Shown here piece after piece: positions 16,209-24,074 of a stretch of 64,000 nucleotides of DNA. The position numbers were made by a program, and so were the translations under genes. Source of the stretch: Methanoculleus frigidifontis (GTDB lineage Archaea; Halobacteriota; Methanomicrobia; Methanomicrobiales; Methanoculleaceae). Below the pieces are notes generated by a model, which saw only the letters and a program-made list of their open reading frames with translations, was not told the origin of the DNA and did not search any database. Location of the stretch: NCBI RefSeq assembly GCF_030464345.1, contig NZ_VCYH01000005.1, positions 62,001 through 126,000 on the forward strand. The letters are read 5' to 3'. Within the stretch, counting starts at the first letter, position 1, and the number at the start of each line of letters is the position of its first letter.

Positions 16209-17240
16209 CTACGGGATAAAAACCTCTCCGCCTACCACCTTCGTCCACATCGTGGCCATCTCTTTGACCTTCCCGGTCTCGCTCTTCTCGAAGAGGTCAA
16301 GGACGGCGAGATCCGCTCGTCTCTGCAGCAGGGGGGCGAGCATCCGCAGATCTCCGTGGTAGACCTCCACCTGCCGGGCTCCGGCCGCCTCCGCGACCAG
16401 GAGCGGTTCCCCGGCGACCGGCCGCTGCCGCAGGTCGTCGTATCTTCGCAGGATGCGCACTGCATCGATCGCGAGCGTGTCCCGGTTTACTACGATGTTG
16501 CAGGCCGTCCAGAAAGCGGCTGCATACCAGGCGTCGTTGCAGATGACGTGGGGGACACCGGCTGCTGCCGCCGCAATTCCGAGCGTTCCGGCGCCGGAGC
16601 AGGCGTCAACGAGCGTTTTGGGGTTTTTCTGGCGGATAGCCCCGTCCAGGGCACGGATCTTCGGATCATGGCCGCGGGAAAACTCAATGTGGATGGTCGA
16701 CTGCTGCTTGTAGATCACGACCGGCCCTGCGCGCGTCGAGAATATGTCGGCGCGCACGTCACACCCGGCAAGCAGTGTGTGTGTCCTTCCGGCACTGTCG
16801 CGGTCAGGGTCGGTAATGCCGGGCACGCCGTCCCCGGTCTGTACCACGCCCCGCACCTCCGGCACCTCGGCGACGAGCCGGTCTGCGCTCTTTTTCGTGA
16901 TAGCACGAGAGAGGAGCACCAGCGATCGCACCGGGAGGTATGGTGGCTGCTGCAGGGCGTACCCGGGGTGGATGAGGGGGGTTCCCGCCGCGGCGAGCGG
17001 TTCGGTCCCGGAGAGATCCCCTTCCTCGTTCATGATCCGGTAGATATGGGCGAAGACCTCGTCGATGAATCGTTTCCCGCACGAGGGGCACGGTTCTGCC
17101 GGGGCGAGATCGGGTGGAGGTGCGCGTTTGTCAAAGGTGAGCCCCATGCAGTCGGGGCAGGGGGTGAAGATCCGCGGTGCCTCTGTGAGCAGCGACGGAG
17201 CGTCTTCGATGCAGCTCCCTCCGCATACCGGGCAGTACAT
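16209..17240 (-). CDS. SAM-dependent methyltransferase with N-terminal zinc-ribbon region (methanogen type)
   Basis: Protein of 343 residues. The N-terminus has three cysteine pairs (CPVC, CPDC, CPSC) likely to hold zinc. A mixed middle part is followed by a class I methyltransferase core: LVDACSGAGTLGIAAA is motif I, VICNDAWYAAAF the acidic loop, and ADLAVLDLFEK lies where motif IV is expected. The catalytic (N/D)PPY is not obvious, so the substrate (RNA, protein or cofactor) is unknown. Comparable proteins are conserved in methanogens. It is followed by the SRP RNA on the same strand but the RNA has its own promoter-like sequence. Confidence 0.72.
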   Translation of the reverse strand: MYCPVCGGSCIEDAPSLLTEAPRIFTPCPDCMGLTFDKRAPPPDLAPAEPCPSCGKRFIDEVFAHIYRIMNEEGDLSGTEPLAAAGTPLIHPGYALQQPPYLPVRSLVLLSRAITKKSADRLVAEVPEVRGVVQTGDGVPGITDPDRDSAGRTHTLLAGCDVRADIFSTRAGPVVIYKQQSTIHIEFSRGHDPKIRALDGAIRQKNPKTLVDACSGAGTLGIAAAAAGVPHVICNDAWYAAAFWTACNIVVNRDTLAIDAVRILRRYDDLRQRPVAGEPLLVAEAAGARQVEVYHGDLRMLAPLLQRRADLAVLDLFEKSETGKVKEMATMWTKVVGGEVFIP

Positions 17241-17292: not shown

Positions 17293-19206
17293 TTACGGGA
17301 AGAGCAGGGCGATGGCGGTGAGGGCGGTTATATAGGCGAGCGGATAGGACCAGACCATGAACCGGTCGATACGCTCTGCAATTTCCTTCTGCCTCTCCGT
17401 AGCCAGCCATCTCAAATACAGGTTATAGGCAACCGTCGCACCGGTAATCGTGAAAGTGGTAACGAGGATGGTGTCCAGGAATGTGAGGTATCCGAGGCGC
17501 GGCAGATCGTCGGCGATGGTGAAGTTGAATGCAATGAAGAGGAGCAGGTTGGCGCTGGCGATATCGGCCCGTTTCCCGTAGTCCTTGAGGAGGAACGTGA
17601 TATACGTCAGCAGGATGATGATCAGGATGGGCACCAGGATCCGGAGGATGTAGAAGGTCAGGTGGCGGGCCGCCTCGAAGTGGAAGGAGTAACGGGAGTT
17701 CTGCGTGTTTATCTGGACGCTGCTTATGTTGGTATCATATGAAGTGATGTACCACTCCTCCTCACCGAGCTGTCCTCCCACAGCAGTCTTCTCCTCCCAG
17801 GGTACGTAGACGTAGAACTCTTCGGGGTAGAGCGAGTCAACCCTTACGTAGAAGTCCTGGGTATCGAACGGGTAGTTCCTGAAGTTGAAGTCCGGTGCCT
17901 GCAGGAGCGTCCAGAAACGCTCGTAGTAGGTGGCGGTGCCGTCGGGGCGGACCGTGATGTATTGATTCTGCGTCCAGCGCCGTTCCTGCTGGTTGAAGAG
18001 GGTGAACTCGGGCCACCGTTGCCCTTCTGCAGTCACGAACTCGTCGATGCTCCGGTAGACCTTGAACTGGCAGTTGCATTCGTCCGGGCTGAACGCCAGT
18101 GCCGGGTCGGTCCACCGCATCCAGATGTTGCCGACCACGCCGAAGTTCTCGGCCTGCTGGTCGACCGCCGTGATCTGGTCGAGTTCGAACCCGACCATCA
18201 CCCGGATGGGCTCCTCTAGGACCCGGGAGCCCATCGGTGCGGCATCGCCCGCCAGCACGGCAGGCACGTTGAGCCCGACCAGCAGCCGGTAGTCGCCCGT
18301 CGTATTGGCGCCGTTCAGGCTGCGGCTGAAGACCTCGATCTCATTGCCTTCGCTGTCGTCGTCGAAGGTGTACTCGAGGGTGGCGGTACTGCCATCTCCG
18401 GCCGGAACGGCTGCGCTCAGAGGTTTACCGCCAAAGTCCCGCAACACGATGACCGGAATAAGGTTCCCGGACGTCGCCTCGATGAAGGCGTAGAAGGTAT
18501 CGCCCCCGGTGACGGGATTTACGGTGTAGAATGTCGACGTCCTGTTCGCCGTCAGCGTCCCGTCGACTTCCTGCACGGCCATGCCTACCTCTGATGCACC
18601 TCTGTCCAGTACGGCGATAGCGGCACCGGTCGGCTCTGCCTGGCCGCTCAGAACCTGCGGCGCATCGATACCGACCAGCAGGCGGTAGGTGCCGAACGTA
18701 TTCTCCTTTGCCGGGGAGCTGAACAGGAGCAGCCGGTAATCACCGTCGGCAGGGATCGTATACCGAACTGTTGCGTCGTAACCCGCTCCGGAGTCGTCGT
18801 CCCATGCAAGGAAGTACCGGTCGGCAATTTCCGGGATCACCAGGAGCGGATCACGTCCTTCGGCGATGGACCGGTTGACCTCCAGATCGAACTCCCGGCG
18901 TGCCTCTCCCCGGGTCAGGCTCGTGTTCGGGAGAGCCAGGAACGGGTCGAGGTTTCCGCCGGTTCCGTTGGCGTAGATGAAGAGGGTCTCTTCCGCCTGC
19001 AGACCGGGAAGATCAAAAAAGATAACCTGATCCGGTTCTATTCGCCCGGTCAGCTCCTGAATTCCGGCATTTTCCTGTGTCTGGGCACTCACCGCGCCCA
19101 CCAGTACTCCGAGCAGGAGCGCTAGGAGGAGTGTTCTTTCTACTGCACGGGCCCGGCTGTTCCGGGCTCCCTGTTCCCGCACCGGCCAACCGGTCCGGGC
19201 ATGCAT
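17293..19206 (-). CDS. Pentameric ligand-gated ion channel (Cys-loop superfamily) with tandem N-terminal domains
   Basis: Membrane receptor-channel of 637 residues. After a signal peptide (about 24-41) come two similar beta-rich domains (about 45-190 and 190-322), each ending in GTYRLLVGI or GDYRLLVGL followed by VLSG or VLAG. The ligand-binding domain (about 325-513) has the prokaryotic Pro-loop as NYPFDTQ (444-450), without Cys-loop cysteines. M1 (about 515-541), M2 (547-566), the hallmark LPRLGYLTFLD linker into M3 (574-597) and M4 (617-636) follow; LPRL closely resembles GLIC. The extra domains recall DeCLIC-type channels. GGAG before ATG 19206 supports the start. It is expressed alone. 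Ligand and ion selectivity are unknown. Confidence 0.9.
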   Translation of the reverse strand: MHARTGWPVREQGARNSRARAVERTLLLALLLGVLVGAVSAQTQENAGIQELTGRIEPDQVIFFDLPGLQAEETLFIYANGTGGNLDPFLALPNTSLTRGEARREFDLEVNRSIAEGRDPLLVIPEIADRYFLAWDDDSGAGYDATVRYTIPADGDYRLLLFSSPAKENTFGTYRLLVGIDAPQVLSGQAEPTGAAIAVLDRGASEVGMAVQEVDGTLTANRTSTFYTVNPVTGGDTFYAFIEATSGNLIPVIVLRDFGGKPLSAAVPAGDGSTATLEYTFDDDSEGNEIEVFSRSLNGANTTGDYRLLVGLNVPAVLAGDAAPMGSRVLEEPIRVMVGFELDQITAVDQQAENFGVVGNIWMRWTDPALAFSPDECNCQFKVYRSIDEFVTAEGQRWPEFTLFNQQERRWTQNQYITVRPDGTATYYERFWTLLQAPDFNFRNYPFDTQDFYVRVDSLYPEEFYVYVPWEEKTAVGGQLGEEEWYITSYDTNISSVQINTQNSRYSFHFEAARHLTFYILRILVPILIIILLTYITFLLKDYGKRADIASANLLLFIAFNFTIADDLPRLGYLTFLDTILVTTFTITGATVAYNLYLRWLATERQKEIAERIDRFMVWSYPLAYITALTAIALLFP

Positions 19207-19342
19207 TAGATCCGCTCCATCAGCAGTCCAATCACCTCATAGGCGATCTGTATCGGATATATTCTGGATTTGATAGCAGGTTTCGTCGGGTTGCATTGTT
19301 ATTATCAGTGTATTATATTTTTGGGTGTATGCTGCCTATCTG

Positions 19343-20389
19343 TCATTCTGATCGTTCTCCAGTAACTTCGATATCGTCGGACGGCTCCATCAGTATCGCG
19401 AGCCAGCGTGTCTCCTCCGAGCTCGATAGTACCGCCTTTATGAGCAGTGCCAGGGGAGCGCCCAGAAACAGTCCCGGGACGCCGAGCACCAGCCCCCAGG
19501 CGAGGACCGAGAGGATGATCACCAGCGGAGAGATTCGGAGCGCCTGTTCGGCAGGGTACGGCAGGAGCAGGCGGCGGGCTGCGAAGTCGAAGGCGAAGAT
19601 GCCGCCGGCAACGGCGAGCGCTCCCGGAAGGCCGTGCTGGAGCCAGGCAAGCCCGATCGGGGGTACTGAAGCGATAGGCCGGCCGAAGTAGGGAATATAG
19701 CCGAGCACGACGATCAGCACCGCCCAGAGCGCCGGGGCGTCGATCCCGAGGAGCAGCAGGAGAATCGCGATTCCGATGCCGGTTGCAAGGCCGCTTTTCG
19801 TGCGGAGAGCTGCGTATGCGACCAGATTGATTGCAGACCTGTTGAGTTCTGTCCTGGCGTCCGTTCCGAGGCTTTTTTCGAGTTTGCCCCGGATGGAGGC
19901 CACCTCGAGGAGCATGAAGACGGCTACGATCAGGATGACCAGAAAATCGATGACCAGAATGGAGAGTCCGGCGAGGATCTCTCCGAGCGAAGGGATGAGC
20001 AGAGGCTCTGCAGCTGCACCGGGCAGCTCCAGAGAGGTCATGAGCCCGATCTCCGCAAGCCATGCCTGCAGTGTCTCCAGCTGCGCCTGCAGCAGGTTAT
20101 GGTAGGCGGGCAGGGCGCTGTCGAGTTCGATCAGCGACAGGCTAAAGACGGCGACCAGCAGCAGACCGATCCCGGCGATAACACCGGTCATCGCCAGCAC
20201 TGCTGCCAAACTGGGCAGTCCGCGCTCTTCCAGGCGGTGCACTATCGGTGTAACGATGACCGCCAGAATAAATCCGACGAGTACCGGGCTTGCGATCGCG
20301 GCGCCGAGGTGCATGCCGGTGACGACGACGGCAGTGATGACGACGACCCGGGTGAGGGATGCAAGATGGGATGGAGCGGGCATGGTCAC
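19343..20389 (-). CDS. AI-2E family transporter
   Basis: Polytopic membrane protein of 348 residues with about eight hydrophobic segments and the family pattern: two N-terminal helices (PVLVGFILAVIVTPIVHRLEERG), a long extramembrane middle, then ALWAVLIVVLGYIPYFGRPIASVPP and the C-terminal GLVLGVPGLFLGAPLALLIKAVL. Members export diverse small molecules (TqsA) or exchange sodium and protons; the substrate cannot be predicted. A second copy is encoded at 29.3 kb. The ATG at 20383 is an alternative start two codons later. Confidence 0.85.
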   Translation of the reverse strand: MTMPAPSHLASLTRVVVITAVVVTGMHLGAAIASPVLVGFILAVIVTPIVHRLEERGLPSLAAVLAMTGVIAGIGLLLVAVFSLSLIELDSALPAYHNLLQAQLETLQAWLAEIGLMTSLELPGAAAEPLLIPSLGEILAGLSILVIDFLVILIVAVFMLLEVASIRGKLEKSLGTDARTELNRSAINLVAYAALRTKSGLATGIGIAILLLLLGIDAPALWAVLIVVLGYIPYFGRPIASVPPIGLAWLQHGLPGALAVAGGIFAFDFAARRLLLPYPAEQALRISPLVIILSVLAWGLVLGVPGLFLGAPLALLIKAVLSSSEETRWLAILMEPSDDIEVTGERSE

Positions 20390-21521: not shown

Positions 21522-21725
21522 ACCCGGACACAGTTTCTGCCTTTTACTCTTGATGTCGTTCCCGGTCTATCGGCGCATTTCATTGACGGGTCTTCCGGCA
21601 ACACCATCTCCCCCGAAGGGTCGCTACATCCCCCGGTTCTGGAGCGGTTTTCCGGCACCGAAAGGAATTTATCCGTGACACCTCTTAACACGGCGTTCGT
21701 AATCCTGCGCAGTGGAGGGTTTAAG

Positions 21726-24074
21726 ATGTCTGATACATGGAAGGGCACGGTCAATCTCGATATCCGGGATTCGGTGCCTGACTGGGACCCCTACCTGCAG
21801 CCGCAGGCACCGGAAGGTGCCCCCAACGTCCTGATGATCGTCTGGGATGATGTGGGCTACGGGGCAATGGACGTATTCGGCGGACCTATCGAGACGCCCA
21901 CGATGCAGCGTATCGCTGATATGGGCATACGGTACAGCAACTTCCATACCACGGCGCTCTGTTCGCCGACCCGCTCCAGCCTGCTCACCGGCCGCAACGC
22001 AACCAGCAACAACATGGCCTGCATCACTGAGGCTTCAGCGGGTTTTCCAGGGCTTTCCGCCCGGATCCCCTTTGAGAACGGGTTTATCTCGGAGGTGCTG
22101 AACGAACGGGGCTGGAACACGTACGCCATCGGCAAGTGGCACCTGACTCCGGGAGAGGAGACCGATATGTCCTCGTGGAAGGGGCGCTGGCCGCTCGGGC
22201 GGGGATTCGAGCGTTACTACGGTTTCCTCGGCGGGGAGACCAACCAGTGGTACCCCGACATCGTCTACGACAACCACCCCATGGATCAGCCTTACCGCCC
22301 GGATGAGGGCTACCATTTCTCGAAGGATATCGCCGACAGAGCAGTCGAGTTTATCCGCGACTCGAAGGTGATCGCTCCCGAGAAGCCCTGGTTCATGTAC
22401 TTCTGTCCGGGGTGCGCCCATGCGCCGCACCACGTCTTCAAGGAGTGGGCAGACAGGTACAGAGGCCGGTTCGATATGGGCTACGAGAAGATACGGGAGC
22501 AGATCCTGGAGAACCAGAAGAAGATGGGACTATTACCGGAGAACACCGATCTATCGCCCATCAACCCTCACGGCGAGCCGGCCACGACCGGGCCGGACGG
22601 CCAGCCATGGCCTCCTCTCGATTTCGTACCTCCCTGGGAATCGCTGAACGAAGATGAAAAGAGGCTTTTTATCCGCATGGCAGAGGTGTATGCCGGCTTC
22701 GTCACGTATACCGATGCCCAGATCGGGCGGATCCTCGACTATCTCGAAGGGTCCGGGCAGCTTGAGAATACCATAATCGTCGTTGTATCCGACAACGGCG
22801 GCAGTGCCGAGGGCGGTCCCAGCGGTTCCTTCAACGAGAGCAAGTTCTTCAATAACGTCCCCGATACGGTCGAGGCGAACCTGCCGCACATCGACGAGCT
22901 CGGCGGCCCCGGGGCGTACAACCACTACTGCAGCGGCTGGGCGTGGGCATTCGACACTCCGTTCCCGTACTGGAAACGGTTTGCCGGGTACGAGGGCGGG
23001 ATCGCGGATATGTGCCTGGTTGCGTGGCCCCGCGGCATCGGTGCCCGCGGAGAGCTACGCCACCAGTATATCCACGCCGTCGATATCGTCCCGACGCTCT
23101 ACGACCTGCTGGGCATTGAGCCGCCGAAGGTGCTGAAGGGCTATACCCAGAGCCCGATCGAGGGGGAGAGTTTCAAGGCAAGCTTCGGCGATCCCGATGC
23201 GCCAGGAAGGGAGATCCAGTTCTACGCGATGCTCGGCCAGAGGGCGGTCTACCACCAGGGCTGGCTGGCAAACACCGTCCACCCGCCCATCTCCGGGTGG
23301 GGCAACTACGCACATGACGTCTGGGAGCTCTACAACCTGAAGGAGGATAGAGCCCAGATGCGGAACCTTGCAGACGAGAAGAAAGACATGCTTGAGCTCC
23401 TCAAGGGGCTCTGGTTCTACTATGCAGGGGTCTACAACGGCATGCCGCTTGATGACCGCAGCGCACTGGAGATCATTTCGACACCGCGTCCCCAGCCGTC
23501 CGGACCCAGGAACCGTTACGTCTACTATCCGGGGACCGCCGAGGTTCCTGAGTCGGTGGCCGTCAGTATCCGGGGGCGATCGTATACGATCGCGGCTGGT
23601 GCCGTCATCGACGGGCCGGAGGCGCAGGGGGTGCTGTTCGCCCACGGAGGTGTCGGCGGCGGCCACAGCCTCTACATCGCCGACGGGCGGCTTCACTACG
23701 TCTACAACTGGCTCGGGGACGCGATCCAGAAGTTCTCCTCGAATGGCACCGTGCCAACCGGCCGGCACGTCTTCACCGCGGAATTTGCCAGGGACGGAGA
23801 GGATACGGAGACGAAGAGCGCTCTAGGCACCCTTACGCTCTACATAGACATGAAGAAGGTGGGAGAGGGACGGATCAAGACTCAGCCGGGATTCTTCGCC
23901 CTCACCGGCGACGGTCTCTGTGTCGGCCGGGATAGCGGATCGCCGGTATCGCCGGACTACTCCGCACCCTTCGCCTTTACGGGTGGAACCATCGATCGGG
24001 TGGTGATCGATGTCAGCGGTGAGCATTATGTCGACCATGAGAAGGAAGTGGCGGCATGGATCGTGCGGGATTAA
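21726..24074 (+). CDS. Arylsulfatase (type I sulfatase)
   Basis: Formylglycine-dependent sulfatase of 782 residues. The metal site DDVGYGAMDVFGG starts at 41, the signature CSPTRSSLLTGR at 79 (Cys79 is the residue converted to formylglycine) and the second signature follows in IGKWHLTPG; WFMYFCPGCAHAPHH and VVSDNGGS supply further active-site residues. The C-terminal 200 residues form a separate beta-rich domain. There is no signal peptide, so the enzyme is cytoplasmic as encoded. ATG 21726 is chosen for the GGAGGG before it; an in-frame start at 21675 lacks one. A GAAAGGAATTTATCC element at about 21660 may be the promoter. No maturase gene is visible in the window. Confidence 0.9.
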   Translation: MSDTWKGTVNLDIRDSVPDWDPYLQPQAPEGAPNVLMIVWDDVGYGAMDVFGGPIETPTMQRIADMGIRYSNFHTTALCSPTRSSLLTGRNATSNNMACITEASAGFPGLSARIPFENGFISEVLNERGWNTYAIGKWHLTPGEETDMSSWKGRWPLGRGFERYYGFLGGETNQWYPDIVYDNHPMDQPYRPDEGYHFSKDIADRAVEFIRDSKVIAPEKPWFMYFCPGCAHAPHHVFKEWADRYRGRFDMGYEKIREQILENQKKMGLLPENTDLSPINPHGEPATTGPDGQPWPPLDFVPPWESLNEDEKRLFIRMAEVYAGFVTYTDAQIGRILDYLEGSGQLENTIIVVVSDNGGSAEGGPSGSFNESKFFNNVPDTVEANLPHIDELGGPGAYNHYCSGWAWAFDTPFPYWKRFAGYEGGIADMCLVAWPRGIGARGELRHQYIHAVDIVPTLYDLLGIEPPKVLKGYTQSPIEGESFKASFGDPDAPGREIQFYAMLGQRAVYHQGWLANTVHPPISGWGNYAHDVWELYNLKEDRAQMRNLADEKKDMLELLKGLWFYYAGVYNGMPLDDRSALEIISTPRPQPSGPRNRYVYYPGTAEVPESVAVSIRGRSYTIAAGAVIDGPEAQGVLFAHGGVGGGHSLYIADGRLHYVYNWLGDAIQKFSSNGTVPTGRHVFTAEFARDGEDTETKSALGTLTLYIDMKKVGEGRIKTQPGFFALTGDGLCVGRDSGSPVSPDYSAPFAFTGGTIDRVVIDVSGEHYVDHEKEVAAWIVRD

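Follow-up and report, generated by a model that had tools for sequence, protein, structure and literature searches.

The window analysed here is a stretch of 64,000 nucleotides from Methanoculleus frigidifontis (assembly GCF_030464345.1, contig NZ_VCYH01000005.1, positions 62,001-126,000), and all positions below are numbered within it. Its reverse strand carries, at 17293..19206, a gene for a DeCLIC-type pentameric ligand-gated ion channel subunit of 637 amino acids. These coordinates coincide exactly with the ends of an open reading frame, and both its ATG start and the sequence MHAR that opens the protein are kept in close relatives. All features of the channel gene and its leader described below lie on the same strand. 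The nearest named relatives of the host genome are Methanoculleus and HGW-Methanomicrobiales genomes, and its two mcrA copies bear out the methanogen host proposed in a preliminary description of this DNA. Contamination was ruled out, the neighbours of the channel gene being syntenic with Methanoculleus genomes and mcrA being present in the genome.

The protein matches the Pfam profile Neur_chan_LBD (PF02931) over residues 331-508 with 46.8 bits against a cut-off of 26, which places it in the superfamily, and a profile search found no second match to PF02931 in the host genome. The Pfam transmembrane model (PF02932) gives a score below its listed threshold, which is reached by 14 of 31 relatives. 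The Pro-loop NYPFDTQ (residues 444-450; 17857..17877) contains P446, D448 and Q450, which are invariant in the 31 relatives aligned. Four transmembrane helices are predicted from the structure model: M1 (residues 516-538; 17593..17661), the pore helix M2 (543-565; 17512..17580), M3 (576-601; 17404..17481) and M4 (604-635; 17302..17397), with the M2-M3 loop LPRLGYLTFLD at residues 568-578 (17473..17505). In a phmmer search of the PDB, DeCLIC ranked first (E = 3e-130, residues 29-629, 38% identity), followed by sTeLIC over residues 330-636 and then by GLIC. The Pro-loop, the M2-M3 motif and the four helices had all been read correctly in the preliminary description, and its assignment of the protein to an archaeal pentameric ligand-gated channel is upheld by the PF02931 score, the Pfam check that it had proposed, and by the match to DeCLIC along the full length.

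The chain begins with a predicted signal peptide (residues 1-41; 19084..19206), in which a hydrophobic stretch is followed by VSA-Q and which overlaps a helix of the model at residues 15-45. Two accessory beta domains follow, NTD1 (residues 46-190; 18637..19071) and NTD2 (residues 191-325; 18232..18636), with 34% and 29% identity to the corresponding domains of DeCLIC. They precede the receptor, or extracellular, domain (residues 326-514; 17665..18231), which contains the PF02931 match and is 46% identical to that of DeCLIC; the membrane domain is 43.5% identical. Searched alone, the region ahead of the receptor domain matched DeCLIC only (E = 2.5e-39), so that homology extends beyond the membrane part, and both accessory domains are homologous to DeCLIC NTD1 and NTD2, as the suggestion of two tandem beta domains had implied.

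An AlphaFold2 monomer model built with 31 homologues (mean pLDDT 84.8, pTM 0.74) consists of two beta domains, a receptor beta sandwich and four helices. The best 20 Foldseek matches in the PDB are all DeCLIC structures, with E values down to 2e-63, followed by sTeLIC and GLIC. The closest, DeCLIC 9ev1, aligns over 604 columns with TM-scores of 0.71 and 0.74 and an rmsd of 5.8 A, a value which makes the angles between domains in the monomer model uncertain. The receptor fold anticipated from the sequence is thus present in the monomer prediction, with DeCLIC matching best across some 600 residues. Judged by sequence and predicted fold, membership of the protein in the pentameric ligand-gated channel superfamily, and in its DeCLIC type, is near certain. 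A separate prediction of NTD1, made with no alignment, was of poor quality (pLDDT 56) and was set aside.

The receptor domain also contains a CxC pair, C377-N-C379 (18070..18078), which does not vary among the 31 aligned relatives and recurs in DeCLIC, but is missing from sTeLIC; a word search of two DeCLIC papers returned no mention of a disulfide. The lobes of the DeCLIC N-terminal domain have a collagenase domain as a published structural match (PMC12664993). The PPC profile (PF04151) scored 16.3 bits against NTD1, under its cut-off of 25.9 (E = 0.018), and gave no match to NTD2 in the profile search; assignment of the accessory domains to the PPC family by sequence was rejected.

The M2 helix aligns without gaps to those of DeCLIC and sTeLIC. 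With DeCLIC L554 taken as position 9' (PMC9897478), the pore positions are D542 (-4', just before the M2 helix), D548 (2'), A552 (6'), L555 (9'), A559 (13') and F562 (16'). An acidic residue, D or E, stands at 2' in 41 of 42 sequences; every sequence has L at 9', and nearly all have F at 16'. Two acidic rings together with leucine at 9' and phenylalanine at 16' would fit cation selectivity and a hydrophobic gate. DeCLIC itself is inhibited by Ca2+ and has been classed as cation-selective from its two acidic rings (PMC9897478, PMC12664993), while there is disagreement over its open state (PMC9897478, PMC12664993). The open-access literature searched contained no recording from the archaeal clade, which leaves room for a non-conducting cell-surface receptor or scaffold that has kept the fold and passes a conformational signal to a partner. 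This is extremely unlikely, as the pore positions, acidic at -4' and 2', L at 9' and F at 16', match the receptor domain in their degree of conservation, the protein has no cytoplasmic signalling domain, and no partner gene is kept beyond local synteny.

A conserved leader precedes the channel gene (19204..19238) and occurs as a single copy in the genome; it comprises the ribosome-binding sequence GAGGTGAT and a four-codon frame. This frame, ATG GAG CGG ATC TAA, follows the strong ribosome-binding sequence, and its stop codon overlaps the start codon of the channel (TAATG). The ATG of the mini-ORF is kept in most close relatives; because it is replaced by ACG at three loci, coupling of the two frames by re-initiation is considered here only as a possibility. 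A TATA-box-like element, CCCAAAAATATAATA, is located further upstream (19311..19325) and is conserved upstream of homologous genes even when their neighbours differ; the leader, too, is shared even by channel copies with different neighbours. Since both elements are retained across differing surroundings, the channel gene probably has its own promoter. A scan for bacterial-style promoters produced hits at chance level only.

In the close family the genes are arranged in the order permease, channel, zinc-ribbon methyltransferase-like protein and malate dehydrogenase-like protein, and the order channel, methyltransferase-like protein and dehydrogenase was also found in one genome of another family. 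In the window the AI-2E/PerM-type permease is encoded at 19343-20389, and it might be supposed that it forms a functional pair with the channel: it lies directly upstream in most close-family loci examined, and a close (75-83%) ortholog was found only in genomes with the permease-channel arrangement. However, the 136-base gap between the two genes contains the promoter-like leader of the channel, which is conserved where the permease is absent, other lineages have the channel without an adjoining permease, and loss of a single segment explains the joint absence. Such a pairing is therefore regarded as very unlikely. Outside the close family the channel occurs in unrelated settings, and among approximately 28 loci examined no fixed operon partner was found outside close relatives. 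The gene context gives no firm clue to the physiological signal of the channel.

The zinc-ribbon and methyltransferase-like protein adjoining the channel (16209-17240, reverse strand) is conserved in the family and has no Pfam match above the cut-off. A sulfatase gene with a formylglycine-type motif, C-S-P-T-R, is located on the forward strand of the window (21675-24074). In five genomes whose other neighbours differ, a sulfatase gene and the channel are no more than about 5 kb apart. A sulfatase near the channel, as at four of the loci compared, is often the only copy in its genome; a degraded remnant was seen in one further genome, and in four others the sulfatase is unlinked to the channel.

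The receptor-domain profile detected members in 26 of 100 related genomes, belonging to 7 of 28 genera, nearly all of them with the extra domains, while a full-length alignment search of the phylum matched 24 of 393 genomes, in 19 of which the match spans almost the entire length. Some other genomes of the order encode short forms of about 345 residues without accessory domains. The rarity in archaea that had been supposed thus holds for the phylum, but not for the order, and DeCLIC-type channels are not as few as had been thought, since about 40 archaeal and bacterial relatives were retrieved. A scan of approximately 85,000 species genomes revealed 31 loci; the archaeal ones are in Methanoculleus, Methanofollis, Methanotrichaceae and Methanophagales, and the bacterial ones in Chloroflexota and in one deltaproteobacterial and one gammaproteobacterial bin. 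No plasmid-borne copies were found.

A maximum-likelihood tree unites the 24 archaeal rows from Methanomicrobiales and Methanotrichaceae in a single, fully supported group. Two Methanophagales sequences are placed apart from this group, Chloroflexota being nearest, and the related bacterial forms are mostly from Chloroflexota. The simplest reading of these data would be an old acquisition in the archaeal lineage, followed by mostly vertical inheritance with many losses; support for the deep branches is weak, which makes the direction of any transfer uncertain. The HGW-Methanomicrobiales-2 genome contains two DeCLIC-type genes, of which L022 occupies the syntenic place and belongs to the Methanoculleus branch; L016 is closer to the copy in the window, yet lies in a different neighbourhood. 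In Methanoculleus sp. SpSt-1212 two overlapping frames together make up the channel gene, pointing to a frameshift or a sequencing error. Among bacterial copies, the one that most resembles those of archaea (52%) comes from a 4.1 kb contig binned as Anaerolineae; mis-binning is possible, and the tree groups this copy with other Chloroflexota copies.

The calcium-site residues of DeCLIC, which had no part in the preliminary description, are retained. In DeCLIC, Site 1 is formed by the side chains of D76, D123 and D124 and the carbonyls of P77, D123 and Y129, and Site 3 by the side chain of E347 and the carbonyls of P434, F436 and L477; the weaker Sites 2 and 4 involve D124, G126 and G128, and Q476, G478 and E480, respectively (PMC12664993). 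By alignment, D76 and P77 correspond to D87-P88 (18943..18948), invariant in relatives, and the remaining residues of Sites 1 and 2 (D123, D124, G126, G128 and Y129) to the segment D137 D138 S G140 A G142 Y143 (18778..18798). In the receptor domain, the Site 3 ligand E347 corresponds to E353 in the beta1-beta2 loop (18148..18150), the backbone ligands P434 and F436 to P438-D-F440 (17887..17895), and Sites 3 and 4 of loop F to QLGEEE at residues 479-484 (17755..17772). The window protein has the same residue at all 16 DeCLIC calcium-site positions checked, E479 and E481 among them, in contrast to the acidic residues of DeCLIC overall, just 34 of 77 of which are kept.

Among about 40 homologues D87, D137 and D138 are fully conserved and E353 is present in 98%; in loop F, E482 and E484 never vary, and position 483 is E in 88% and D in the rest. 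The DeCLIC-type residues are thus found in both NTD1 and the receptor domain as residue identities, which are weak evidence at the backbone ligands, because several of the Ca2+ ligands are carbonyls. Most Methanoculleus sequences have N in place of G140 and T in place of G142, changes that need not matter, since Site 2 uses backbone atoms. A second Site 1 motif in NTD2 was considered and rejected: its DDD belongs to another loop, and neither the D-P nor the D-D positions are retained.

The protein is likely to be a subunit of a cation-selective homopentamer of the DeCLIC type that is held closed by extracellular Ca2+. The pentameric state, inhibition by Ca2+, cation conduction and selectivity and the role of the accessory domains are carried over from DeCLIC by analogy, on the strength of residue conservation. 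Five subunits would assemble in the cytoplasmic membrane of the methanogen with the receptor and the two accessory domains outside. Extracellular Ca2+ would bind at the interface between receptor subunits, to E353 and the backbone of P438 and F440 in one subunit and to loop F QLGEEE of the next, and also in NTD1 to D87, D137 and D138, thereby keeping the pore shut at L555 and F562. Loss of Ca2+, possibly together with a change of pH or an unknown ligand, may then release the accessory domains, and cations could enter through the open pore past the acidic rings D548 and D542. No measured function of an archaeal DeCLIC-type member was found in the open-access full-text literature searched.

Ca2+ might instead be merely structural in the same channel, stabilising the accessory domains and the interface, while opening is triggered by pH or by an organic ligand that occupies the receptor interface or the accessory domains. 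Among the structures of DeCLIC determined at pH 5 are open conformations in 10 mM Ca2+ (9fth). In sTeLIC, which is gated by alkaline pH, the receptor Ca2+ site likewise retains E, P, F and QLGEEE, so the trigger is not fixed by this site; fusions to small-molecule-binding domains occur in other prokaryotic members (PMC549065). Against this, DeCLIC currents arise on depletion of Ca2+ (PMC12664993), all DeCLIC Ca2+ ligands are kept in the window protein, and no other ligand was identified, which makes a purely structural role of Ca2+ possible, yet rather doubtful.

If the channel is indeed closed by Ca2+, it could serve these methanogens as a cell-surface alarm for Ca2+ depletion, an unlikely, speculative extension. 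The Ca2+-binding accessory domains would then lie in the surface layer or immediately beneath it, and a fall in extracellular Ca2+ or a disturbance of the layer would cause a cation leak that gives a membrane-potential signal in an archaeon. In the archaeal clade there are dozens of natural variants that share these domains and calcium sites, some with an altered Site 2, which makes the role of the accessory domains and of calcium testable by comparison. The methanogen families of this clade include cultivated members. The locus is also a defined case of a relative of neurotransmitter receptors kept across an archaeal order with frequent loss.

Prokaryotic members of the superfamily, including Methanosarcina proteins with Cache and MCP-N domains, were described in 2004 (PMC549065), and an inventory of 2016 counted 24 archaeal sequences, some of which fell between those of bacteria (PMC4795631). 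DeCLIC was presented in 2025 as the only superfamily member with a partly characterised N-terminal domain (PMC12664993). A search of open-access full text, with subscription papers outside its scope, found no paper on DeCLIC and archaeal homologues or on pentameric ligand-gated channels and methanogens. The archaeal DeCLIC-type channel is therefore of a kind already known that seems undescribed in this host group; as the search covered open-access text, priority is not firmly claimed.

Of the characterised systems, DeCLIC from a Desulfofustis deltaproteobacterium (PDB 6v4a, 6v4s, 9ev1 and 9eva), the sole bacterial channel of this type with a solved structure, is the most similar, sharing the four-part architecture with two N-terminal beta domains, homology along the full length, the Ca2+-site residues, 9' L, 16' F and the CxC pair. 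Unlike it, the window protein (38% identical) is archaeal and from a cell expected to have no outer membrane, has D rather than E at 2', and contains R at the vestibule position of N405. sTeLIC (PDB 6fl9) is 43% identical in the receptor and membrane domains and has D at 2' and the Ca2+-site letters of the receptor, but lacks the N-terminal accessory domains and the CxC pair, and is gated by alkaline pH according to its PDB title. The receptor and membrane part also matches GLIC (PDB 4hfi and others), which shares the superfamily fold, but is only about 25% identical, proton-gated and devoid of accessory domains. The PPC domain (compare the collagen-binding domain of collagenase, 1NQD) is linked to the accessory domains through the published structural match of that collagenase domain to the DeCLIC lobes and through the weak sequence match of NTD1, whose score below the Pfam cut-off does not establish membership. 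The Methanosarcina Cys-loop relatives are likewise archaeal and possess two extra N-terminal domains; these, however, are described as MCP-N and Cache (PMC549065), and not as jelly rolls of the DeCLIC type.
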